Shown here: one piece after another, positions 1,490 through 25,288 of the stretch
Layout: every line of letters starts with the position of its first letter
How positions within the stretch are numbered: position 1 is the stretch's first letter
DNA from: Aduncisulcus paluster
Taxonomy: Eukaryota; Fornicata
Assembly: GCA_024181965.1 (NCBI GenBank)
Contig: BQXS01012511.1
Location: 7,203-37,092 of the forward strand
Length of the DNA: 29,890 nucleotides
Direction: 5' to 3'
The notes under the pieces: model-generated
What the model saw: only the letters and a program-made list of their open reading frames with translations
What the model was told of the DNA's origin: nothing
The model's database searches: none
Position numbers and translations under genes: made by a program

Positions 1490-1514
1490 TTTTGTATTGA
1501 AATTGATAAATCCA

Positions 1515-4343
1515 ATGAGTTCATATACACCCATTCAAAGTGTGAGAGCTGAATTTTTCCATAAAGAAACTATATCTCATGAATCCAGAGATAAAATATG
1601 GCCAAAATATCAAGTAGGGCCCAGGTATGAATATGAAATTCCCTTGATGCCAGGGCAAGATAGAGAAAAAGAGGGGTCTGAATATCCTGATTCAAGGGAA
1701 CGTTCGTCGACCACATCCACTCAATCGTACCCATTCCAGCGTCATAGTCCCACTGGTCGCCTCCATTCCATCTCCCCCCCACTCTCTGTCTCTCCTCGGA
1801 CGGCTGTTCTATCACGTGATGTCCGTATCTCGACTCTGATCCATAGTAATCAGATTCTGAGTGTAGCATTGGAGGAAGAGCGACAACAGCGTGAGAAGAG
1901 GAAAGAAGAGAGGAGGCGACGGAGGCGGCGTGAAGAAGAGGAACGGAAAGAGAGAGAAAATGAAAGAAAAAGGCTAGAAGAAAAACGGAAGAGCGATGAC
2001 CGTCTTCGAGAGGAAAGAATAAGAAAAGACGAAAGAGATCGTCGTTTGGAGCGTGAACGGATGCAACAAAAAGAGAGATCCACGAATAGAGAGCTTCTCA
2101 ATCACTCCTTGCATTCTCCTTCACAGCTTTCTCATCCAGAATCGAGAAGATCTGTTACTTTCCAAGTGGCACAAGGGATTGATCATGATAATGGACCTAT
2201 AAGAACAGGCGTTATCGGTAGCCATATCGGGAGTAATCCTTCTGCTTCTATCTCCTCCCTTTCTTCAACTGTTGAAAGACTGGATATGTTGAAGAGATCG
2301 GTCAGAGAGAGTGAAAAACGCATTCAAGATGCAAGGAGAGGGCAGAAAGAAGTCGAGGGACAGCATGACATAGAGAAAAAGATGCTTCAGGCAAAGGTTC
2401 TTAAGGAAGCTGATAGCGAACTTGGAGCCAAACAATCATCCAAACAATTATCCAATCCATCCAAGTTTGCAAGACATCGTTTCTCTGATCGAATTACTCA
2501 AGAATCTTCTGATGCCACAGCTGCTTCAAGAACACCTTCCTCTTCTTCTTCTTCTTCTTCTTCTTCCGCTTCTTCCGCTCCTTCCGCTCCTTCTTCTTCC
2601 TCATTATCTTCATTATCACCCCATCCTCGCACTAAAGGAGGTATACCTCACATTATGCTCTACTCCTTCACTGCTCGTTCCCACAAGCCGTCTGAGATAT
2701 CGGTTAGGGCCGGCGAGGAAGTTTGGGTTGTGACGAAAGCAGGAGATGGCTGGACTCTCGTATGCCGTGGTGACGGAGAAATGGGAGTTGTTCCCACAGA
2801 TTATCTTGGGAAACAGGTAAAGAAGAAGAAGAAGTCGCCAAAGACTGCTGATGCAAAGCATATTGATGGAACTGAGGGTGAGAAGAGAGAGAAGAGAGAG
2901 AAGAGAGAGGAAGTGAGTGGTAAAACAAAACATAAGGATTCTAAAAAAGAGCTGCCATCGAAAGATTCTTCCAAACATGACATTCCACATGCTTCTCTCG
3001 ATGGTTCTGATTCTGAGAAAGATGATAGAAAAGTAGATAAACAAGAACCATTGTCTCCAAATGCTGGCAGTGAGGGTGAAGATATGGATTCCAAGACTTC
3101 TCCTCCTCTTCTCAAACATATAGATATGGACAGTGGCAGACCAACAACAAAGCCACACTCAGACAGTATCAAGGGCTCTGATATTCATTCTGAGACTGAT
3201 GGTATCGATCATACTCCCCCTCTCGAAGCCATGTCTCCTTCCTCCACAGAGCTCATTGATAGCGAGCATATCATTGATAGTGATCCTCACATGGATGATT
3301 CTGCATCTGAAATGTCACCTCTCAAATCCAGATTAAAACAAAGGACTGGTGGAAAGAAAGGTTCATCAAAGAAGAGTTCTAAGAAACGATCCTCAAAGCG
3401 AAAGGGTAAAAAATCATCGTCAGAGTCTAAAACTAAAATCCCTGATATCCCTCCTCCTCTTGCTCCTGCTCCCACTTCCTCTTCTTCTTCCTCTTCTTCT
3501 TCCTCTTCTTCTTCCTCTTCTTCTTCCTCTTCCTCTTCCTCTTCCGCTCCTCGTGGACCCACAAAGCTTGTATTTAGACGTGTTGCTATGCCACCATACC
3601 CCATTGTTTACACTCCATTGTGTGACAAGGAAGCCGTTGCAATGCTCCGAGGTGACATATTCCTTCGTCATTTTGATAATGGGACAATGGTTGAGCAGAA
3701 AATGTGCATAAACAATTCATTTGACAAAATACTTATGGGCACTGAAAAAGCAATAGAAAAGGAGAAGAAACGTCTTCGAATCGTTGAAGAGAAAAAGAAG
3801 CACCAACAAGCAAAACGATATAAATCAATGTACCATCTTATACATTCTGGAGATTTGAATGCCATGCGAGGACGTTCTTCTCGAGAGATTGTGTCTCCAT
3901 TCGTGATTGGAGAGAAATTCCAAGGTTCATCTTCCTCTGGCGTTCCTTTCAAGTCCTCTAGGACTCTGATAACATCGATGAGTCATAATAAGATGACATT
4001 CATGGGTCTTCCGGGGTTCTATTCTCCTTCACATAATCTCAAATGTATTGATGTCGGTCGTATCATGTCAATTTATGTTGATCCCATATCTCCTTCTCTT
4101 CTTGTCATTCGCATAGCTGTTGGTTCCTCAGCTGTCAAGAAATATACACACTCGTTCAAGGAGGGTGTTGTGATGATGTCAGACTTCTTGGAGGAGTCAA
4201 AGATTGAAGAAATCACATTGCAGGCAAGAAATGGACAGTTGGCAGCATTATGGTGCGATTTGTTCACAAGACTCGTTCAAACAGTCACGCAAACCATACC
4301 AAATCCATTATATGGAGTGTTTGTTGAACGCGTTCCGAAATAG
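1515..4343 (+). CDS. SH3-domain scaffold protein with charged coiled coils and PH-like C-terminus
   Basis: 942 residues from the ATG at 1515; an in-frame TAA lies at 1458, and a longer N-terminus through an upstream exon is possible (see 1325-1489). Residues ~116-194 form a very long Arg/Glu-rich helix and ~250-305 a second coiled coil. Residues ~379-434 are a recognisable SH3 domain: MLYSFTAR (ALYDF position), GEEVWVV, the GDGWTLV tryptophan, and the terminal GVVPTDYL. A Lys-rich linker, acidic Ser-rich stretches and a poly-Ser tract (~654-677) follow. The last ~260 residues are folded (MLRGDIFLRHF ... WCDLFTRLV) and end in a Trp-bearing helix reminiscent of PH-like domains; that is only suggestive. 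Expected role: cytoplasmic adaptor binding Pro-rich partners, possibly at membrane or actin. It converges on the kinase gene. Confidence 0.9.
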   Translation: MSSYTPIQSVRAEFFHKETISHESRDKIWPKYQVGPRYEYEIPLMPGQDREKEGSEYPDSRERSSTTSTQSYPFQRHSPTGRLHSISPPLSVSPRTAVLSRDVRISTLIHSNQILSVALEEERQQREKRKEERRRRRRREEEERKERENERKRLEEKRKSDDRLREERIRKDERDRRLERERMQQKERSTNRELLNHSLHSPSQLSHPESRRSVTFQVAQGIDHDNGPIRTGVIGSHIGSNPSASISSLSSTVERLDMLKRSVRESEKRIQDARRGQKEVEGQHDIEKKMLQAKVLKEADSELGAKQSSKQLSNPSKFARHRFSDRITQESSDATAASRTPSSSSSSSSSSASSAPSAPSSSSLSSLSPHPRTKGGIPHIMLYSFTARSHKPSEISVRAGEEVWVVTKAGDGWTLVCRGDGEMGVVPTDYLGKQVKKKKKSPKTADAKHIDGTEGEKREKREKREEVSGKTKHKDSKKELPSKDSSKHDIPHASLDGSDSEKDDRKVDKQEPLSPNAGSEGEDMDSKTSPPLLKHIDMDSGRPTTKPHSDSIKGSDIHSETDGIDHTPPLEAMSPSSTELIDSEHIIDSDPHMDDSASEMSPLKSRLKQRTGGKKGSSKKSSKKRSSKRKGKKSSSESKTKIPDIPPPLAPAPTSSSSSSSSSSSSSSSSSSSSSSSAPRGPTKLVFRRVAMPPYPIVYTPLCDKEAVAMLRGDIFLRHFDNGTMVEQKMCINNSFDKILMGTEKAIEKEKKRLRIVEEKKKHQQAKRYKSMYHLIHSGDLNAMRGRSSREIVSPFVIGEKFQGSSSSGVPFKSSRTLITSMSHNKMTFMGLPGFYSPSHNLKCIDVGRIMSIYVDPISPSLLVIRIAVGSSAVKKYTHSFKEGVVMMSDFLEESKIEEITLQARNGQLAALWCDLFTRLVQTVTQTIPNPLYGVFVERVPK
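2537..2600 (+). repeat. TCT/TCC trinucleotide tract (poly-Ser coding)
   Basis: A run of TCT, TCC and GCT/CCT codons inside the SH3 gene encodes about 13 Ser followed by Ser/Ala/Pro. It is a low-complexity linker immediately N-terminal to the SH3 domain and a likely length-variable microsatellite. Confidence 0.85.
3475..3545 (+). repeat. (TCTTCTTCC)n tract coding poly-Ser
   Basis: A nearly pure run of TCT and TCC codons, largely in a 9-base period, encodes about 24 consecutive Ser between the Lys-rich linker and the folded C-terminal domain of the SH3 protein. The antisense frame reads as poly-Glu and is a shadow. Confidence 0.9.
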
Positions 4344-4794: not shown

Positions 4795-7700
4795 CTATAG
4801 TGTAGTAGTAAAAACAAGGGAGGAAATACCGAAATATAGAGATTTTTCCTCTTCCCACGTTCCTTTCCCTTCAATCTCACACAATACGATATTATCGAAA
4901 TCAATAGGAAGGAAGTGCCATTCATATATATGTTCAGGTCTTGTGAATTCATACCTTATGAATGTCTTCTTACCATCACAATCAGTGAAAGTGAAGAGAA
5001 GAGAGGGTGAACTATAGTTTGCACTCACACAGATATAAGCACCTTGCACAAAATTAGGGGATGGAAAAGGGATGGAAAGATGGGATAATAAAACTTTCTG
5101 CTCACCTTTTAGCATTTTTTGTGCATCTGAACTTTGCTCATAATCCTTTGATTCCTTACTATATGAACAATGTTTTCCTTTAACCATTGAGAAAGATGGA
5201 GTAATGATCTTTGGATCATCACGTGGAATAGGAATAGAATCTCTACTTTCTGACCTTTTATCACCTTCCTGAACAAATTCTGATTTTACAACAGGAGATT
5301 CAGACCATAGTTTTTCTCGGCATTCACGAATTTTTGCCTCTTCAGAAGTTTCATTTCGGAAGAAAAAGAGGGATTTAATTTTAAAAGACTCAAGTCTCCT
5401 TCCTTTTCCTGTAATTTCACACAAAATAACATCAGGGAGATCAATAGAAAGAAAATACCAATGCTCATCTCGAAATAATGGAGGAAATTCATATTTCTTG
5501 ACTTTTTTATCACCTCCTGAAGATATAAAAGTGAAGGTAAGATGTGATGGAGGTGAATCCCAGTTATATATACAAATATAAGCTCCCTTGATTGAGTGAG
5601 ATGAAGAGAAAGGAATGGATATATGGGTTAGGCTTCGATAATTATACTCTCCTTTCATCATCTTTTGTGCAAAAGAACTCATATCATATCCATTGGTACC
5701 TTTTCCTTTTGTTCCATCTATTCCTTTGATAGTTGGAAAGTGAGGACTCTGAACATTGGGAGAATCTCTGGGAATTGGACAATACCATGAATCTCCTTCA
5801 TAAATGAACTCTGGTTTCACAAGTTGAATACTGGGTTTAGATGAACTCTTTGCTGCGATAGAAAATGTCATATCATCTTCTACGGATGCCATTTCAGTTC
5901 CTGTATTACTTCCGCTACTAGTGTCTATGGTATAAGTTGAACTTAAAGGAATTGATTGAATTCCATCGCCTCTCCTCTCCATTTCAGATTGAGTTGTTGT
6001 TGTTGAACTGAAAGGAATTCCTTTTTTCATCGCTATTTCCGAGGAATCTAATGAAATTTTTTGTAAAATGGGTGTATCATGTTCTTTGTCACGTTCTTTA
6101 CACACAAGATCCTTATCATGCTCTGACAATTGGAACTGTGTACTATGAATTGAACTCATAGCACTAAGCGAGAAAGTGTCTTTTGAGATACCTAATGGGA
6201 AGATATGATAGCCAGAGCCATCCACACCTGTATCTTTATCTTCAATCTGAGTGACATGTTCTCTTTCTTCCTCTTCTTCCTCAAGCTTCTTCTTTTCCTC
6301 AATCTTTGGAGATATTCTTGTCTTACTTCCACTACTAGTGTCTATAGTATAGCTTGAACTTACAGGAAGAGTTTGATTGCCATCTCCTGTTTTCTTCTCC
6401 ATTTCAGATGGACTTGTTGTTGTTAAAGTGGGTGTAGCATGTCTTGGTGATGATTCACTATCTTGTTTCTGTTTTTCACTCTCATCTTCCTTTACCTCTT
6501 CAATACATCCAGAGTTACCCCCATGTTTTAAAAGCTGACGTTTTACAATATCCTCAACGGATGGACATATAAACCCTTCTCCAATCTGGGGTAGTACAAT
6601 CTTTGGAAGCAAATCTTTGATGGATTGCACCTTCTTTCGAGCTTTATGAACACTCATACGTTCATCTTCATCTTTTTTGGTGAGACCTGTGAATATTTCA
6701 TTCAAACATGCATGAACAGGTTGGAATTTCCCATCTTCAATGGTTCGTAATGTTTTGAAGAGATCAGAAGAACATAATCTGGGAACTCTATTCTTTTCCA
6801 TCAGACTCAGCATGGTATACATAATATCATAACTATTATCAACACCTCGAAATACAGGCATGGATATGAAGGGATCAGTGCATTGGAACAAGGCAAGAAT
6901 CGACATTCCAAGAGAATATCCATCACTCTTTTGAGTCTGTTTTCCTTCACAGAGAGTCTCATAAGAATTATACACGATAGTTCCACACGCAGAGGGTTTA
7001 GGTTGTGAAAGTCGTTTTTCTTGTTTGGTGGAAGAAGAGGAAGGAATATAACTCTTGGAAGTTACAGATGATGTGATAGAATCTAAGACTTGGACCATTC
7101 CAAGATCAGAGAGAACAATTGTACATTTCTTTGAATCATGATCAACACGAACAAGGAAGTTGTCTGGTTTAACATCTCGATGAATAAGACTCTTCTTTGC
7201 TCTAAACACATCATCAAGACACTCAATCATGCCAACACAGAGAGCACTCACTTTAACAGGGTTAAGTCTCATGGGATCAAAATGAGTTGTGTCAATATCA
7301 TTCTTGGAGTCAGAATCAGAAATACAAGATGAATCAGAATCTTCACTATCATCAGCATCACCAATATCACTCACATACTTGCCATCATCACACCAACTTC
7401 TAGCAAATGCACTCACACTACCTCCAGCACAATATTCCATGATAAATCCATATTCACCTTTCATATCTGCATCAAGCAGGTCAAGGATATACAAAGGACG
7501 AGGGATACGATTGAAACATTTGGGGTTGTTAAATAACTTTCGTTGCATCTTGAACTCCTTTCGGCATCCTTTAACAACCCTTTCATCAGCTTCATGGAGC
7601 ATTTTCTTCAGAACACAAGGAATGGGAATACCTTCAACTTCAACAAGAAGAACTTTACCAAATCCACCATGACCAATGATGCACTGAGGAGTCATGGTTG

Positions 7701-10700
7701 CAGAGGAAGTTAGGGTGAAAGAGTTTGGTTTGATAAGCTTTGTGGAATCTGAAGGAAGGGGAGGAATGTCTTCACCTTTAATGAAAATAAGGGATTTTAG
7801 AGAAAAAGTTCGACTCAACCCCTTTTTCCATGTCCCTTTTCCCTGAATCTCACATAATCTAACGTTTGGAAGATCAATAGGAAGAAAGTAATATTCAGAT
7901 TTATGTAGAATTTCTGTGAATTCATACCTCTTGGATATCTTCTCTCCATTAGAAAGAGTGAAAGTGAAGAGAAGAGCAGGGAGAAAATATTTAGGAACAG
8001 AAATATATGCACCTTTAATTGAATTAAGTGATGGGAAAGGGATGGAAAGATGGGATAAGGAGAATGCAATACCTTCCCCCTTTAACATTTTTTGTGCATC
8101 TAAACTCCGATCATACTCCTTAGATTCCTTACAATAGACATCATTCTTTCCCTGAACATGTGAAAATGAAGGCTTTATGATTGATGGATCATCACGTGGA
8201 ATGGGAATATAATCTTCAGATGCTTCCTTAATGAATTCGGGTTTAATCGATACAACTCCTTTCCACTGTTTTTTAAATAATAATTCTTTAACTTCTCGAT
8301 CAATCTCTTCATCAGGAGTTTCTTCTCGATAAAAAGCAAGGGAAGAAATAGAAAAATTCTCCCTTTCTTCTTCGTCTCCTTTGATATCTCTTTTGATATC
8401 ACATGAAACAACATCAGAGAGACCAATTGAAAGCTTAAACCAACGAACTGTGGATTCAGTATCAAATTGATATAAATATGATATTTTGCTTCTATTTGAA
8501 GAAGTAAATGTGAATATAAGAGATAAAGATTTACGATATGATAGACAGATATAGGCACATTTTATAGATGTTGATGATTTGAAAGGAATGGAAATATGAG
8601 AAAACTCAGAATTATAAAAAATATCCAATCCTCTCATCATCTTTTGTGCAAACTCGCTCGTATCAACATATCCATCTTTTTGTTTCTTTCTTGCATTAAT
8701 TTCAATAAAATCTGGACTGATAAATATTGGATCATCTCGAGGGATTAGAATGCATGAATGATCTCCTCTATAGATATATTCAACTGTTCCCAATAAAATA
8801 CGTTGTTTGATGAAAACTAAAGAAGTTATTGAAAAACATCGACTATTCTTACATCTCCACGTTCCTTTTCCTTCAATCTCACACAATACAACATTATCCA
8901 AATCAATAGGAAGGAAGTGCCATTCATATGAATGTTTAGGTTCAGGTCTTGTGAATTCATACTTCTTGTATATCTTCTTACCATCACAATCAGTGAAAGT
9001 GAAGAGAAGAGAGGGTGAACTATCATTCCAATCCACACAGATATAAGCACCTTTCATTGGACTGGGTGATGGGAAAGGGATGGAAAGATGGGATAATTTC
9101 ACCCTACCTTCACCTTTCAACATTTCTTGAGCTTTTTCACTTTGGTCATACTCCTTAGATTCCTTACAATACGAATCCTTACTTACCGTATCATTCTTTC
9201 CCTTGACCATCTCAAAAGAAGGATTATTAACGGCTGCATTACCACGTGGAATGGGGATGGCAGATGCATCGCCAGAATTCATAAACTCTGATTTAATGGT
9301 GGGCTACATATCATTTTTGAAAAAGAGATATATAATGGTATTAGAAACAAATCGAGAGATAATATTGTAAAATAAGATTAGCGTGAATCGTATCAAATAA
9401 TAAAACAAAGAAATGTGAACATATTAAACCAATAAAATATAATGAACATACAGCTTTAGACCATTGTTCCTCAATGGATTCTCGAATATAAGGTTCTTCA
9501 GAGGTTTCTTCTCGAAGGAATACGAGGGAGAGGATGAAAAAACATCGACTATTCTTCTCTTTCCATATTCCTTTCCCTTCAATCTCACACAATACAACAT
9601 TATCCAGATCAATAGGAAGGAAGTGCCATTCATAGTCATGTTTAGGTCTTGTGAATTCATACTTCTTGCGTGTCTTCTTACCATCACAATCAGTGAAAGT
9701 GAAGAGAAGAGAGGGTGAACTATCATACTTATAAACACAGATATAAGCACCTTTCATTGGACTAGGTGATGGGAAAGGAATGGAAAGATGGGATAATCGA
9801 ACAAACCAATCCCCTTTTAACATTCTTTGTGCATCTGAACTCTGATCAAACTCCTCAGATTCCTTACTCTTCGAATCATCCTTGCACTTTACCATTGAGA
9901 ATGAAGGATCTACAAGCTTTGGATCACCACGCGGAATAGGAATAGAATATCTACCTTGAGAATTTCTATCTCCTTCCTGAACAAACTCTGGTTTCACAAC
10001 TTGAGCTTCTGACCATAGTTTCTCTCGAAAAGCTTCTTTGGCTTCACGAAATATAGTTTCTTCATGTGTTTCTTCTCGAAAAAATATGAGGGAGTAGATT
10101 TCAAAAGACTCTTCCTTTCTTCCTTTCCCTGTAATCTCACACAGAACAACATCAGAGAGATCAATAGGGAGAAAGAACCAGCTTGTTTTTTCTAATTCAG
10201 GAAATTCATATTTTTTAACCATTTTCTCCCCCTTTGAAGATGTAAGAGAGAAGATAAGGTGTGAAGGTGATCGGGTATATCCTCCTCCAATACAAATATA
10301 AGCACCTTTAATGGGAGTAGACGTGGAAAAAGGAAGGGAAATATCTGTAAATGCCCCCCAATAACCCTCTCCTTCCATCATCTTTCCTGCATTAAAACTC
10401 TGATCATATTCTCTATCACCTCTTCCCTTGGTCCTATTCTTAGCTTCAATAACAGTTATATCAGGACTCTTAACATTTGGGGCATCTCGAGGAATTGGAA
10501 AGCTAGTTAAATAACCTTCATGAATAAACTTTGGTTTAACTTCTTGAATCTAATAAATTAATTGAGATTTTGGTGGAAATAAAGCAATAAAAAACACCCG
10601 AAAGAGAAAAAGGGTTATGAAAGCAATATGGGCATTATTTTTCAAATTAATTATATCAAACATCATAAAATGTATAAATTCGAAAACTTTCAGAAACATA

Positions 10701-10740
10701 CAATATCTTGGCCACTTTCTGAGCTTGATTTTGGATCCAT
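4795..10740 (-). CDS. Giant protein kinase with seven novel ~150-aa modules (3 exons)
   Basis: Exons 10740-10702, 10549-9452 and 9303-4795 join in frame to 1,881 residues. The ATG at 10740 is the first after an in-frame TAG. Catalytic domain ~915-1270: Gly loop GHGGFGKV (~921), VLKKM lysine, HRDVKPDN (~1086), DLG in place of DFG (~1111) and CGTIVYNSYE for the APE region (~1158). All catalytic residues are present, so an active Ser/Thr kinase is expected. It carries an acidic Asp/Ser insert (DADDSEDSDSS) before the C-lobe. Five modules precede the kinase and two follow it, separated by a low-complexity linker (~1290-1550). Each module has IPIPRDDP, then a KESKEYDQS-AQKMLKGE segment, LSHLSIPFPSP, KGAYICV, LLFTFT, KKYEF, FLPIDL-NVVLCEIEGKG and a closing strand; it looks like a beta-sandwich that may bind ligand, but I do not recognise it. 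No TM segment or signal peptide is seen, so it is probably cytoplasmic. Confidence 0.93.
4798..5792 (-). repeat. Two C-terminal modules of the kinase protein (A-B)
   Basis: Module 6 (from ~5790, PIPRDSPNV) is class A and module 7 (from ~5237, IPIPRDDPKII) is class B, joined by the WSESPVVKSEFVQEGD linker. Module 7 is nearly identical in DNA to modules 2 and 3 (compare 4865-4930 with 8872-8935 and 9574-9640). The protein ends right after the closing strand of module 7. Confidence 0.9.
5909..6424 (-). repeat. Duplicated linker segment in the kinase protein
   Basis: The linker after the kinase domain contains two copies, about 95 bp each, at ~6326-6424 and ~5909-6004. They encode SEMEKKTGDGNQTLPVSSSY and SEMERRGDGIQSIPLSSTY, each followed by TIDTSSGS. 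Between the copies lies a Glu/Lys-rich stretch. This is a diverged internal duplication within a Ser/Thr-rich region. Confidence 0.8.
7760..10512 (-). repeat. Five N-terminal modules of the kinase protein (A-B-B-A-B)
   Basis: Module starts (IPRD/IPRG motif) lie near 10510, 9946, 9262, 8753 and 8212 on the minus strand. Two classes are visible. Class A (modules 1 and 4) has MM-G-E and HISIPF- or DISLPF-type sequence with SSSxSIKGAYIC. Class B (modules 2, 3 and 5) has QKMLKGE-type sequence with LSHLSIPFPSP. Modules 2 and 3 are close to identical at DNA level over the KGAYICV to EIEGKG stretch. Module 4 is the most diverged (IKCAYICLSYRKS). Intron 2 lies in the linker between modules 2 and 3. 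Confidence 0.9.
9304..9451 (-). other. Kinase gene intron 2 (148 bp, phase 0)
   Basis: Donor GTATGTTCAT at 9451 and acceptor ATATGTAG ending at 9304. Splicing gives EEQWSKA-PTIKSEFMNSGD followed by AIPIPRGN, which lines up residue by residue with the uninterrupted equivalents REKLWSEAQVVKPEFVQEGD and SIPIPRGD in other modules. The internal repeat therefore proves the junction. Confidence 0.95.
10550..10701 (-). other. Kinase gene intron 1 (152 bp, phase 0)
   Basis: Donor GTATGTTTCT at 10701 and acceptor TTTATTAG ending at 10550. Splicing joins MDPKSSSESGQDI to IQEVKPKFIHEGYL, and the latter matches the inter-module sequence (VVKPEFVQEGD) seen elsewhere in the protein. The intron interior contains stops. 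Confidence 0.88.
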
Positions 10741-11521: not shown

Positions 11522-13036
11522 TTATACTCTAATGGTGCTACAAATTGATTTTAAATCGTGAACTTCCGCGCTAAGGTTTTGAGTCTCTCGAAATGACAAC
11601 AAACTTGAAGTTAGTGCAGACTCAAGTGATGTCAAGAGTTGTTTATCAGAAAATATCCCAAGACACTCATTTTCAGAGAGTAAATATAGAGAATGGAGAT
11701 GTTGAACGTGGGAGATTGCTAGAACAGTGACTAATTCAATAAATTCAGAAAGAAACACATAATCAGTGGTCGGAATCACTGCCAAATCTACAAATCTCTC
11801 GGCAATAGGAAGAAGGGAAGGGTGTCTGAAATTGAAACCTAACTCAATTAAAGCATTAAGAGTTTCATCACGAGATATGACTTTTCTTCTACCGCTTGTT
11901 GTACAATACGCAGGATTCTCAAGACAAATGGGGTTTGTGTGAGGCAAATTATCCTCAGAATTATAGCTGTATGTGATAAAACACACAGGATCTTCATATA
12001 TATCCTCATTATTCGACTCGCTAGAATACTCTCTATAATTGGAATCAGATTTAGAGGAAGAGGAGGAAGAAGATGGATTAGAATTATCGATTAGATCAGA
12101 ATCTTGATCATTGTGCTCAAATTCAGTGGTAGAAGAGGTCAAAGAACATGATGATTTGTCATAATCATTGGAATCAATACTACACGTGAAATCAGAATTG
12201 AAATTATCACTATCAGTTTCATTATTATTGATAAATGGCTCAGATTTTAAATTGTTTTCATCAAAAAATGTCGAATTCGAATCAGATGACCCCTCGAAGG
12301 AGTAGGACTCAGAGGAGTACGTATTATCTGAAATCTCTTGGCATCTTCCGTATCTTTCGTATCCTGTAGTGGTAAATACAGTCACGGCTGCCAAAAGAAG
12401 GTTCTCAGCTTGCTTATACTCATCATATCTGATTACGTTGTCATCAACATCATAACAGAATAAATTAAAAATATTGTTCGTGATCCGGGGAGAAAATTCA
12501 ACATTAATCATATCTCCAGATATTCCCATCATATTGGCGACAAGAATTGGGAGTTTTTCACTGAAAGCAGCCTTTGAGATTTCGAAACTTTCATCCGAGT
12601 CGATTAGATAGAAGTTGGAATGACTAACCTCTTCTGAAAATCGTAATTTCATGCCATTGGCCATTAAACCCATATCAATCCAGAAAAATGCAGTTTTCTT
12701 AAAAGAAACCCGGATGTTATCTTCTGGTTGAATTCCAAGCGAAATACACTCGGAAAACTCTTCTTCATATTGAGCAAATTCTTCTTCTGCCTCATGGACA
12801 TACCTATAGTCATCCTCCTTGGGAGTTCTCATCGTAAAGAATTCTGAATCACTTAAAGGATCCCAACGAGCAGTATAAACTGATTGTATAGAGTAAAATA
12901 TTATAATAATTGAACAAAAACAACAATATAATTTGTTGAGACTCATCATATATTTGCGGTACAACCCATAGTACAAGGAAAAAGAACGTTGTTTATGTTT
13001 TGATAATAATTCATCAATGAAGGAAAATTTTGACAT
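11522..13036 (-). CDS. Ser/Asp-rich protein with N-terminal signal or membrane anchor
   Basis: 504 residues from ATG 13036. A hydrophobic segment (LYCCFCSIIIIFYSIQSVYTA, ~35-55) follows a basic stretch, making it a type II anchor; if translation starts instead at Met30 or Met31 it is a classic cleavable signal peptide. Residues ~60-235 look folded and acidic (KKTAFFWIDMGLMANGMKLR; TVFTTTGYERYGRC). Residues ~245-355 are a disordered Ser/Asn/Asp tract. The last ~110 residues are helical with conserved-looking hydrophobics (TLNALIELGFNFRHPSLLPI). I recognise no family. The start lies in ATATATAATGTCA, a 13-mer shared with the start of the giant gene at 19706. It is divergent from the small zinc-protein gene; the 273-bp gap between them must hold both promoters. 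Confidence 0.8.
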   Translation of the reverse strand: MSKFSFIDELLSKHKQRSFSLYYGLYRKYMMSLNKLYCCFCSIIIIFYSIQSVYTARWDPLSDSEFFTMRTPKEDDYRYVHEAEEEFAQYEEEFSECISLGIQPEDNIRVSFKKTAFFWIDMGLMANGMKLRFSEEVSHSNFYLIDSDESFEISKAAFSEKLPILVANMMGISGDMINVEFSPRITNNIFNLFCYDVDDNVIRYDEYKQAENLLLAAVTVFTTTGYERYGRCQEISDNTYSSESYSFEGSSDSNSTFFDENNLKSEPFINNNETDSDNFNSDFTCSIDSNDYDKSSCSLTSSTTEFEHNDQDSDLIDNSNPSSSSSSSKSDSNYREYSSESNNEDIYEDPVCFITYSYNSEDNLPHTNPICLENPAYCTTSGRRKVISRDETLNALIELGFNFRHPSLLPIAERFVDLAVIPTTDYVFLSEFIELVTVLAISHVQHLHSLYLLSENECLGIFSDKQLLTSLESALTSSLLSFRETQNLSAEVHDLKSICSTIRV

Positions 13037-20202: not shown

Positions 20203-20908
20203 TTACTTTGTTAAAAACGTTTTTGCTTTAAACTTTTTTTTAAGCCTCATTTCAGGTTTCCCAATGATGGCAAAACCAGAGATCTCATAACAATTTCCAC
20301 AAACCGCAATCTGGAACTTTATAGATTGTTTCTCTAACATAATTTTTGATTCATCTGGACACACGATACAAATCATTTTGCCAGTTTCGTAGACAACAAT
20401 TCCACTTCGACCACTCTCGCCTCTATGGGAAGAAACAACCTCAATAAAAGCACCATGAAGATTCATCATAAGAATGTTTGGAATTTTTGTCGCCAACAAA
20501 GATGGATTTCCTCCAATGTCAGAAACAGAAATACCATCAGCCATAATAGTTTCACACGTGTGAAGATTTGAATCAGAGTGGGATTTGGCTCCTTTGAATT
20601 GTTTAAATAAATTACTTGCATATTTTTTCCATATTAGATGCATTTTAAAGGCTGTTGCATATGAAATTTGTTTCCAAGATGAAGAGACCTCGGGAAAATG
20701 CTTTACGGGATATTTTTTTATGATATGTTTGGATTTTTCTTTCTTTGATACACTTTTAATATCTTAATGATGGAAGAATAACCAAAAAATGAGTATTTTG
20801 AAAAAAGATGAAAATCAACTATCAACAACTATTATATAACGTACGTTCACAACTAACGGATAGTGCGGTTCCTTTTACCTCTTTATCATAACTTGGAAAT
20901 GGCAACAT
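20203..20908 (-). CDS. POP4: RNase P/MRP protein subunit Rpp29/POP4
   Basis: Two exons, 20908-20845 and 20762-20203, join to 207 residues, close to the ~220 usual for the family. The subunit binds the RNA of RNase P (tRNA 5' maturation) and RNase MRP (rRNA processing) through an Sm-like beta-barrel. The C-terminal ~85 residues show that fold: NLHGAFIEVVSS, then GRSGIVVYETGKMICIVCPD, a SIKFQIAVCG strand and the basic end RLKKKFKAKTF, which matches the family's GIVxxET and terminal KKFKxK signatures as I remember them. The basic N-terminus (KKEKSKHIIKKYP) suits RNA binding. ATG 20908 is the first after an in-frame TGA. The gene is transcribed in the same direction as PBDC1, 138 bp downstream of it. 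Confidence 0.8.
20763..20844 (-). other. POP4 intron (82 bp, phase 1)
   Basis: Donor GTACGTTATA at 20844 and acceptor ATCATTAAG ending at 20763. Splicing joins SVSCE to HIKSVSKKEK in frame and bypasses in-frame stops. Exon lengths of 64 and 560 sum to 208 codons. GTACGT differs by one base from the GTATGT used elsewhere. Confidence 0.7.
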
Positions 20909-21046: not shown

Positions 21047-21662
21047 CTATTTCTCTCCTTCTTCTTTCTTAGGTTCTTTTTTAGTGGAATCAATTGATGT
21101 CTTAAGATGGCCCAATTGGTTAATCCCTTCTCTATTTCTGGCAATTTCAATGCAATAAAACTGGATCCGTGGAACAAGAGTACAATTATCTTCGCCCCAA
21201 GGTTTTGAAGAATCAAGACGAACTAAAGAGCCCATATTCCATTGAGAAATGCGTTCTTTGAAATGCTCTAAAAATAGAGCCCATAAAGTCTTTGTAGCGC
21301 TGCTCTTGAGTAAATCTTCGGATATCACACTAATATCAAGAGAAGGAAAGGTTGAGCGGAATTTGGAATAAATTTCTTCATCGATGGGTGTGAGAGTAAT
21401 TTTTTTCAAATCCTTGCATCTCGGAAGGAGAACATTATAGAAAGTGTCTATAAAGTGGTAAACGGATTAATAACTAGACAAGAGAAAATAAAATATGAAC
21501 ATTGGATGGTATATATAATCACATACAACTGAAATTAAATGCTAACTTGGCCCATTTCATCTCTATTTCAGCATCATTCTTCACACCTTCTGGGAAGGGA
21601 TTACGAGTTTTGTCAGCGAGCTCATCGATTTGTTTCTCATCTAAAGCAATATGACGTGACAT
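21047..21662 (-). CDS. PBDC1: PBDC1 homologue (polysaccharide biosynthesis domain-containing protein 1)
   Basis: Exons 21662-21527 and 21447-21047 join to 178 residues. PBDC1 (yeast YPL225W family) is a small conserved eukaryotic protein, linked in yeast to eEF1A folding; the name does not imply sugar chemistry. Family signatures as I remember them: EIEMKWAKLAF in exon 1, LTPIDEEIYSKFRSTFPSL, a DLLKSSATKTLWALF helix, NMGSLVRLD, VPRIQFYCIEIARNREGINQ and a Lys/Glu tail. The order and length fit a full-length member. The ATG at 21662 begins MSRHIALDEKQ. It is divergent from the RING gene and lies upstream of POP4 in the same direction. Confidence 0.9.
21448..21526 (-). other. PBDC1 intron (79 bp, phase 1)
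   Basis: Donor GTATGTGATT at 21526 and acceptor CACTTTATAG ending at 21448. Splicing gives AFNFSYTFYNVLLPRCKDL, aligning with the family's conserved region before the LT-x-DDxIY motif. The nearer acceptor TTGTCTAG would lead to a stop, so it is not used for this product. Confidence 0.88.
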
Positions 21663-23323: not shown

Positions 23324-24826
23324 TTAACACTGCAATTGGTTTTCAACAACATAATTCGACACTTTACACGCCTCAGCAACAAAACCCTCCAAAATATCTG
23401 GGTTTAGCTGAGATTTAAATGATTTAGTCAACTTACGCATAAAATTTTTCTCATTGAAATGACCTTTTAATATTGTAACTCCCCATGTTCTTGCCAGCTC
23501 AAGATGTATATTTAAAAGTTTAGAATATTTCATAGACAACTTCCACAATTTATGGAGGTGATACGATGACTCAGAACCATCATAAAAGTTCCAAAGAAAC
23601 TGATATTCTTTACACTTTTCTGTACATTTATATTCTTTTGTATACGATCCCTCCACGGTTGAAACCAATTTATATTGACTGAGAAACTCCAAAAGTTGTT
23701 CGCTTTGAGCATTGTATGAACTATAATACTTTGAAGCAAACACCTCTTTTGATGCACCCTTATTCAATGTTAATAAAGAAGAGAAAGCTGAACCAACAGG
23801 ACCCTCCATAACGTATTCCATCAACAAACGCATCATTCTTCCATTTCCATCAGGATGTGGGTGGTAGTGCGAGTAAAATGCAGACAAACAAAGCATAAGT
23901 TCACAGGGGAGCTTAAATCTATACATAGAATACATATCTTCCAAAGCTGTCCAGTCAAGACAAAAGAAAGGCACTCCAATATGAGAAACATCTAATTTAT
24001 CTACTGAGAGCTTCACCAGTGAACTACTTCTCCGAGATTCATCAACAATTACATCATCCTGAGATCTAAATACTTCAACAGGTTTATCAGCTTCTTTCAC
24101 TTGCAATAACCTGAAAAGAGATGTCAAAGAGGTCTTTTCATCTTTCAAATGTTTCAAAATTTCACTTGCGGTCTCTGCATCTGGAGGAGCGTCCCCTTCG
24201 AACTTGAAACTCTCTTCTAAGTCATGCCTGCAGGTTGATTCAGAAGAAGTTGAAGACTCTTCCTCTGCATCTCCATCCCTAACTGAGGAGATATCCTCAG
24301 ATCCACAGAGAAACTTTCTACATATCATTAAGAATGGCTTCTTCATGACAGTGTTTATCCGTAAACGATATCGAGATTCAACACAACATTCTTGAACATG
24401 ATGATAATATTTCTCATCGAGAAGATCATACTCAGGTTCCTCACTTGAAAGATCAGGAGTTGTAACTAACTTAGAATTAAGAAATTCAAACAAGAACCAA
24501 ATTCTCCTATTAACTGGATCTTTTAAATCCGAAGAAGCAATCTCTTCTTCAGTTATATGATGCGTAAGTACATATCCAATCACCATTGGATTCCAAGGTT
24601 CATATTTCAGGTGATTGTATAAATGTAGATAAGTTGAAAGATTTTCTGGAACTGGCGTTCTTATGAAGGCTTCAGGTATTTCTTCATCGTCTGGGCAGTA
24701 ATTTTCCCATAAAGTATTGAGTTCTTCATCACAAGATCCGAAAAACAACCGAGATTTGGGTTTTGCCCAAAATAATCTAAATAAATTCATCAGCCCACAA
24801 ACACCCGTTTCTATGGGGTATTTCAT
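23324..24826 (-). CDS. Fic-domain protein (predicted AMP transferase)
   Basis: 500 residues from ATG 24826; the longer frame relies on a TTG start. Fic proteins transfer AMP or other phosphate groups to target hydroxyls. The Fic motif at ~321-332 reads HPHPDGNGRMMR: catalytic His, acidic Asp, GNGR and final Arg are kept, with His where Phe is usual. It is followed by a helix (LLMEYVMEGPVGSAF). The N-terminal part carries RRIWFLFEFLNSK and ESRYRLRINTVMKKPFL, resembling the RRIWFLYEWLTG and RHRVRDNLL regions I know from bacterial Fic proteins, so bacterial ancestry is suspected. An acidic Ser-rich insert (~195-250) is a eukaryote-like elaboration. No S/TxxxE(G/N) inhibitory helix was recognised. 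No signal or TM segment. Confidence 0.85.
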   Translation of the reverse strand: MKYPIETGVCGLMNLFRLFWAKPKSRLFFGSCDEELNTLWENYCPDDEEIPEAFIRTPVPENLSTYLHLYNHLKYEPWNPMVIGYVLTHHITEEEIASSDLKDPVNRRIWFLFEFLNSKLVTTPDLSSEEPEYDLLDEKYYHHVQECCVESRYRLRINTVMKKPFLMICRKFLCGSEDISSVRDGDAEEESSTSSESTCRHDLEESFKFEGDAPPDAETASEILKHLKDEKTSLTSLFRLLQVKEADKPVEVFRSQDDVIVDESRRSSSLVKLSVDKLDVSHIGVPFFCLDWTALEDMYSMYRFKLPCELMLCLSAFYSHYHPHPDGNGRMMRLLMEYVMEGPVGSAFSSLLTLNKGASKEVFASKYYSSYNAQSEQLLEFLSQYKLVSTVEGSYTKEYKCTEKCKEYQFLWNFYDGSESSYHLHKLWKLSMKYSKLLNIHLELARTWGVTILKGHFNEKNFMRKLTKSFKSQLNPDILEGFVAEACKVSNYVVENQLQC

Positions 24827-25288
24827 TATTTTTTTTATATTTCTTTTTATAAATTGGACCAAAATGGGCTGATAAATGATGGATTTTGAATATTGAGTCG
24901 AGCCGACTATTCACAATGGTCGTCAAGGCGATTTTATTGCAAAAAGAATAGATTATTCAAAGGAATTAGAATTTAGGAGAATTATTTGGAGATAATTTGA
25001 AGTGTTATGCAATAAGTAATTGCCAATAACAATTGTCAAAGAATTTCAAGTTCAAAAACAAACAAAATACATAAATATAACAATACAATGCACTATCGCA
25101 TTCCAAAAATAGAATAATGAGAAAAAGATAGATATATATATATATATATAGAGAGAGAGAGGGTAGGAAAGAAGAGGGAGAATACAGTGTTATCATCAGG
25201 ATAACACACTTCAAAAAGAAACCCTAATTATATCATAATAATTAATATTCATATCATAATGCTGAAGAAAGTAACAAGATAAAACCTA
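24827..25288. other. Intergenic, upstream of Fic gene
   Basis: 462 AT-rich bases between the Fic start and the exporter gene's end. They include a TA/GA microsatellite (25132-25161). A T-rich stretch before the Fic ATG may be leader. No other feature is seen. Confidence 0.5.
25127..25163. repeat. (TA)n(GA)n microsatellite
   Basis: About nine TA dinucleotides followed by about six GA dinucleotides, in non-coding DNA. Confidence 0.9.

Follow-up and report, generated by a model that had tools for sequence, protein, structure and literature searches.

Recognition repertoires in animals and plants place hypervariable binding surfaces on a constant framework. Such repertoires are also described in filamentous fungi, where HNWD proteins (HET-E, HET-D and HET-R) and other NLRs are presented as intracellular proteins whose highly conserved repeats carry diversifying hypervariable codons and are exchanged within and between genes (PMC4986451). 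In Giardia lamblia, the kinome account attributes 198 of 278 kinases to the Neks, 133 of those 198 having a kinase followed by ankyrin repeats; in that account most Neks are inactive, receptor kinases are apparently lacking, and the Nek-ankyrin kinases are proposed to be targeting scaffolds (PMC3218828). Here we describe a gene of the fornicate Aduncisulcus paluster, contained in a 29,890-nucleotide (nt) stretch of contig BQXS01012511.1 that we call the window, in which seven copies of one module, falling into two classes (A and B), surround a protein kinase domain. We read it, with a rough probability of 0.55, as a soluble intracellular sensor kinase with hypervariable recognition modules that is one member of a repertoire.

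The module family resembles the HNWD family in having near-identical repeats with a few hypervariable, fast-changing codons. The fungal repeats are WD, ANK or TPR repeats on an NLR, whereas the A. paluster modules have about 165 amino acids (aa) and a predicted galactose-binding fold, and stand beside a kinase or alone in a unicellular flagellate. Because the fungal NLRs combine the same features in other domains (a constant framework, a few hypervariable positions with rapid amino-acid change, cassette exchange and a signalling domain), we favour a recognition repertoire, with this gene as one of its kinase-coupled sensors. Like the Giardia Nek-ankyrin kinases, the proteins represent a large lineage-specific expansion, in a fornicate, of kinases joined to repeat domains; unlike those kinases, which are N-terminal, the kinase has recognisable motifs and mostly follows its modules, which are beta-sandwiches. 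DDR1 and DDR2, single-pass membrane tyrosine kinases of animals, likewise join a discoidin-fold domain to a kinase in one chain, but no membrane segment was seen in the window protein, which has many modules and no sequence match to the DDR family. CBM32, APC10/DOC and F5/8 type C domains share the predicted fold and differ from the modules, which are laid out in A-B pairs with loops that vary on a nearly fixed framework.

Positions 4795-10740 of the window are exactly one minus-strand coding region of 1881 codons, which is split into three exons and closes with one terminal stop. A profile of the module found seven copies, five before the kinase (residues 14-178, 196-366, 380-548, 551-712 and 729-891) and two after it (1538-1702 and 1715-1881), in agreement with a reading of this DNA made from the sequence alone; the module size of about 150 aa given there is corrected to 162-171 aa. 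The other copies are 37-71% identical to module 2, well above what chance would give. The sequence-only reading had also proposed two alternating classes. Average-linkage clustering of the modules gave no classes, and in its place we used class profiles, built first from the copies in the window and then refined by iteration on 67 proteins (the spliced window protein and 66 from the database). The differences between A and B class scores were two-peaked and reproduced the proposed order A-B-B-A-B-kinase-A-B. The motif string proposed for every module, running from IPIPRDDP to LCEIEGKG, is the class B form and is incomplete in some copies, module 4 having KLSIGL for FLPIDL. All the catalytic motifs attributed to the kinase are present: the Gly loop (GHGGFGKV), the Lys (VLKK), HRDVKPDN and DLG. 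The features of this array are as follows.

10055..10549, minus strand: module 1, class A
9491..10003, minus strand: module 2, class B
8797..9303, minus strand: module 3, class B
8305..8790, minus strand: module 4, class A, the copy least similar to module 2 (37%)
7768..8256, minus strand: module 5, class B
6607..7707, minus strand: protein kinase domain, aa 912-1278 (Pfam PF00069, Pkinase, 2.7e-13)
5830..6606, minus strand: Ser/Glu-rich stretch, no domain above the Pfam cut-off
5335..5829, minus strand: module 6, class A
4798..5298, minus strand: module 7, class B

The AlphaFold model of the pair formed by modules 6 and 7 is a galactose-binding-domain-like beta-sandwich with a mean predicted local distance difference test score (pLDDT) of 93.9. 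APC10 and CBM32 were the nearest structures in fold searches, whose listed rows included the intracellular proteins APC10, IFT25 and muskelin as well as DDR1 (4ag4); a search against viral structures listed F5/8 type C and galactose-binding proteins, along with other matches, and gave no further insight. A known sequence family for the module was rejected, since nothing significant emerged from Pfam, NCBIfam or PDB sequence searches, and no CBM32 or F5/8 type C Pfam match was found for the seven modules at E values up to 1 or for 14 pairs at E values up to 10. An 11-row set of pairs was chosen from 18 diverse pairs, out of 54. The earlier description of the module as unrecognised thus stands for its sequence and fails for its fold, which was already known. 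The model and the fold searches strongly support the suggestion of a coherent fold and, more specifically, of a ligand-binding type of beta-sandwich. The overall system looks new.

Three homologue searches listed 216 distinct proteins, every one of which carries the module, with 630 module matches in all (525 nearly complete). The source names were A. paluster, save for two entries labelled Carplike_NY0171. We took this label as the same strain because the genome announcement names NY0171, which was grown with food bacteria as far as that announcement describes it (PMC9933649). The two entries probably come from an earlier transcriptome, in which case family members would be transcribed. Among the matches listed the family appears lineage-specific, as had been suggested; in one of the searches the best 120 of 164 matches were seen, and a foreign relative is possible among the other 44. 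Further proteins combining module and kinase, which had been anticipated in this genome, were also found: 66 of the 216 listed proteins match a kinase profile (the window gene's own record included). Many proteins are stand-alone A-B pairs. Among the best 120 of 164 matches, a single A module with a single B module is present in 99, and 79 are shorter than 400 residues. Adjacent module matches in the 67 proteins (265 pairs, partial matches counted) were A-B in 104 cases, B-B in 62, B-A in 53 and A-A in 8, while 38 contained an unassigned piece; from these counts we took the unit to be an A-B pair with additional B copies. The deposited, longer model of the window gene (P0001) is inside the count of 216 and outside the set of 67. 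No published description of the module family was found in literature searches. In four listed proteins (P0127, P0164, P0042 and P0060) modules share a chain with thioredoxin, a fidgetin-like AAA ATPase or leucine-rich repeats; these are either true fusions or joined gene models.

The 79 proteins shorter than 400 residues are near-constant over most of their sequence, and 34 positions have an entropy of at least 2.6 bits. Relative to 273 framework positions, these positions are enriched in N (4.7-fold), Y (4.6-fold), W (3.0-fold), D (2.3-fold) and H (2.0-fold) and depleted in P, M, T and V. For codon tests we searched 7.1 Mb, about a quarter of the 29.4 Mb A. paluster assembly, which is the extent of all genome searches reported here. 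This search gave 120 matches, of which only 30 with loci were used. One of these (L026) was dropped, as the best open piece at that locus proved to be its neighbour L036, already in the set, and copies with stops (such as L018 and L038) contributed only stop-free pieces. The final set held 29 A-B copies (406 pairs), two of them from one long open frame. The rates of amino-acid-changing (dN) and silent (dS) substitution were 1.09 and 0.66 at 25 hypervariable codons and 0.07 and 0.23 at 293 framework codons; 41 columns of middle variability (dN 0.53, dS 0.29) were kept outside this contrast.

Because picking columns by their variability biases dN/dS, we picked columns in one of the two homologous halves of the pair and tested them in the other. 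Codons of the B half picked from A had a dN of 0.63 and a dS of 0.52, codons of the A half picked from B had a dN of 0.84 and a dS of 0.46, and the remaining codons had a dN of 0.11-0.14 and a dS of 0.22-0.25. The held-out dN amounted to 2.9 and 3.4 times the dS of the remaining codons of these copies, and 200 random sets of B codons reached a dN of at most 0.40. Hypervariable columns fall at matching places in the A and B halves (7 shared against 0.83 expected, p 4.5e-7). The same columns are the variable ones in the kinase proteins, where the top 25 include 11 of 13 from A and 12 of 12 from B; this comparison used 38 of 50 proteins, and the 12 with weak kinase matches were left out. When exon 2 of the window gene was compared with that of contig C39, amino acids differed at 13 of 25 hypervariable and 27 of 341 other positions (p 9e-8), and a 10-residue indel lay beside one variable loop. 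Hypervariable loop positions that change this fast support the view that the modules recognise something. Copying from a template with mutated adenines, in the style of diversity-generating retroelements, was also considered. The simple adenine-only pattern misfits because the hypervariable codons include TGG, GAA, AAA and others with different third bases; a reverse transcriptase or template was not searched for.

We then placed the hypervariable columns of the 29 genomic copies on the model of modules 6 and 7. They are pair residues 13-15, 53, 62, 64, 66, 88, 90, 91, 120, 150 and 152 in module 6 and 229, 235, 247, 269, 271, 272, 301, 326, 327, 332, 334 and 336 in module 7. In the A half they lie after the first long strand (13-15), in a short helix (53), before a long strand (62-66) and at 88-91, 120 and 150-152, and those of the B half occupy largely equivalent places. 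The hairpin turns around 79-82, 103-107 and 131-134 are near-constant. Since the strands alternate in direction, their order suggests a barrel with the variable loops gathered at one end and with the termini and the constant turns at the other. In the CBM32 structures described in PMC5291390, the sugar site is formed by apex loops of variable length.

The kinase domain of the window protein is likely active, judging from its motifs. Among the 67 proteins a kinase profile matched 50 and the HRD pattern occurred in 40, of which 28, in a set that includes the window protein, had all four catalytic patterns; in these counts partial gene models are not told apart from lost motifs, and we regard some relatives as partial or possibly inactive. 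The Pkinase profile had 119 matches in the 7.1 Mb, pieces of one kinase being counted apart. Kinase families were the only domains of the window protein above the Pfam cut-off, with no NLR nucleotide-binding domain or WD repeats. No membrane-spanning segment was found in it by hydropathy, as the highest 19-residue mean was 1.43, at residue 926 within the kinase, and exon 1 shows on reading no hydrophobic signal-like start. A membrane receptor was therefore rejected for the window protein, which is probably intracellular.

We propose that the array of galactose-binding-domain-like modules (discoidin/APC10/CBM32 fold), built from A-B pairs, would be the ligand-binding part of the protein. In each module the hypervariable loop residues would form a ring at the end of the barrel that faces away from the termini, and because the residues differ across genes and across the modules of one gene, a repertoire of specificities may result. 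The probable active kinase would convert recognition to phosphorylation, possibly when several modules cluster on one target. Three processes could renew the repertoire: gene duplication, selection that diversifies the loops, and the duplication or exchange of exon cassettes via near-identical introns. We infer ligand binding, an active kinase (from its motifs), gating and the biological target; foreign molecules, for example of bacterial prey or parasites, seem the most likely targets. A bolder and more tentative version would make the family an intracellular adaptive-style repertoire of a free-living unicellular eukaryote, in which hundreds of lectin-fold modules with antibody-like hypervariable loops on a constant framework are shuffled as exon cassettes through conserved introns, perhaps with alternative splicing or targeted mutation as further sources of renewal, and act either in soluble pairs or, coupled to kinases, in sensors of foreign molecules. 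The proposal bears on how unicellular eukaryotes distinguish self, prey and parasites inside the cell. If it is true, a family of more than 200 proteins in a relative of Giardia, with its variable sites mapped and a kinase as readout, makes that question directly testable, and the galactose-binding fold joins the short list of natural scaffolds for diversification.

The introns give an indication of how modules may be exchanged. Introns separate modules in five family genes (those of the window and of contigs C39, C210, C285 and C370). A junction intron of 144-149 nt, the type of intron 2 of the window gene, was found in eight copies, phase 0 on both sides; the exon ahead of it ends in ...EQWSKA and the one behind it starts with, for example, PTIKSEF, PTIESEF or PAIKSEF. 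This set leaves out two unresolved junctions, one in C210 and one in C285. The eight copies have a mean identity of 97.9%. Identity is about 97% over the last 60 nt of the upstream exon and falls soon after the intron end, and the final 100 codons upstream have a dS of 0.13 (28 pairs). The module downstream is of class A in two C39 copies and of class B in the other six. For downstream B-B pairs (15 pairs) dS is 0.13 where the introns differ by a distance of 0.026, and for downstream A-B pairs (12 pairs) dS is 1.2 where the intron distance is 0.018; these class-separated values replace a pooled dS of 0.61 that mixes A and B modules. Because near-identical introns lead into modules of either class, the sequences suggest cassette shuffling, and exchange or conversion of module cassettes through introns is the simplest reading, functional constraint on the intron being the alternative. 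Introner-like mobile introns were rejected within the searched 7.1 Mb of the 29.4 Mb assembly because eight of eight intron 2 copies lie between modules of the same family. In C210 and C370, single B-module exons (L040 and L043) are flanked by two near-identical phase-0 introns and are candidates for alternative splicing of recognition modules.

Several results weigh against the sensor-kinase explanation. The Foldseek TM-scores (template-modelling scores) of the listed rows are low, 0.09-0.30 over the two-module model, and the list also contains cupins. A model of modules 4-5 with the kinase (7 sequences) had a mean pLDDT of 56.4 and was poor in the kinase part, so that gating of the kinase is without structural support. 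Positive selection on whole genes is not supported, as the median dN/dS is 0.65 and values above 1 occur in only 12 of 406 pairs; the selection signal therefore comes from a minority of the sites. The hypervariable codons also show elevated silent change (held-out dS 0.46-0.52), part of which could stem from the pairwise counting, from a locally higher mutation rate or from gene conversion. Between the window and C39, intron 2 is 98.6% identical and the preceding B module, at 97.3%, hardly less. A rival explanation is a neutral history, in which a repeat family is homogenised by gene conversion and exposed loops drift without constraint, so that the variability means nothing. Whole-gene dN/dS not above 1 in 394 of 406 pairs, near-identical introns and the raised silent change at hypervariable codons are all in keeping with it. 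Drift would nonetheless be insufficient, unless mutation is locally raised, for amino-acid change at 2.9 and 3.4 times the silent rate, and would have to coexist with a residue skew toward N, Y, W, D and H and away from P, M, T and V. We consider neutral expansion improbable.

Two other explanations accept that the modules bind something. The modules could read the sugars of bacterial food as lectins, with the kinases switching feeding or digestion and the variation serving the diet; such prey sugar sensing is one possible target within the sensor-kinase explanation and not a different machine. The residues favoured at the variable positions are N, Y, W, D and H. In CBM32 lectins of the same fold, as described in PMC5291390 and PMC3313936, aromatic and polar residues of variable apex loops hold the sugars, and the organism was kept with food bacteria (PMC9933649). 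The modules have no sequence-level match to CBM32 or F5/8 type C domains, and because the window protein lacks a membrane-like stretch and a signal-like start, prey sugars would have to leak out of food vacuoles to reach it; we hold this version to be possible but doubtful. Alternatively, the modules could bind the cell's own proteins (of the cytoskeleton, flagellar apparatus or organelles) and place an expanded set of kinases as targeting scaffolds, the variation reflecting many partners. APC10, IFT25 and muskelin, the intracellular members of the fold among the fold-search rows, bind proteins, and a few listed proteins combine modules with AAA, thioredoxin or leucine-rich repeat domains. The lineage-specific kinase expansion with repeat domains described for Giardia is a precedent (PMC3218828). 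Change at the same few positions, near-identical frameworks and many stand-alone pairs are unlike stable targeting modules, and no tie between the modules and any cell structure was seen here. We rate the scaffold explanation as slightly less probable again than prey sugar sensing and still clearly ahead of neutral expansion.

The exons and introns of the window gene are listed below. Its splice sites were picked by reading and are supported by two relatives, and both introns (152 and 148 nt) have GTATGT...TAG ends.

10702..10740, minus strand: exon 1, start codon and 13 codons (MDPKSSSESGQDI)
10550..10701, minus strand: intron 1, phase 0, 152 nt
9452..10549, minus strand: exon 2, one A-B module pair, 366 codons, both ends phase 0
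9304..9451, minus strand: intron 2, phase 0, 148 nt, junction intron
4795..9303, minus strand: exon 3, modules 3-5, kinase, linker, modules 6-7, stop

A similar exon 1 (MDPMPSSERSQDI, MDPKPSSERSQDI) stands ahead of the same intron in contigs C39 and C210, and in C39 the 80 nt upstream of the exon 1 ATG are identical to the window. Intron 1 has four matches in the searched 7.1 Mb, itself included, and the remaining three are 94-97% identical. Many stand-alone relatives start near the same point, and 39 of the best 120 of 164 matches begin with MSS. We favour the short start because of the similar exon 1 and shared intron in C39 and C210 and the MSS starts of relatives. The deposited protein model (ADUPG1_012666) has 2284 residues and is longer than our model of 1881 aa. 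We took its part ahead of the modules to be a 504-aa open frame (window 11522-13036, minus strand) because the sequence before the end of this frame matches; the frame, seemingly fused to exon 2 in the deposited model, is probably a separate gene.

Elsewhere in the window, a 512-aa frame (23324-24862, minus strand) has a weak Fic/DOC match (E 0.00079) that is under the curated cut-off. A PBDC1 protein and RNase P/MRP subunit p29, listed in the same order as their coordinates (21047-21409 and 20203-20643), are ordinary neighbours on the minus strand. On the plus strand, a 948-aa frame (1497-4343) contains a single SH3 domain together with long low-complexity runs of serine and of charged residues.

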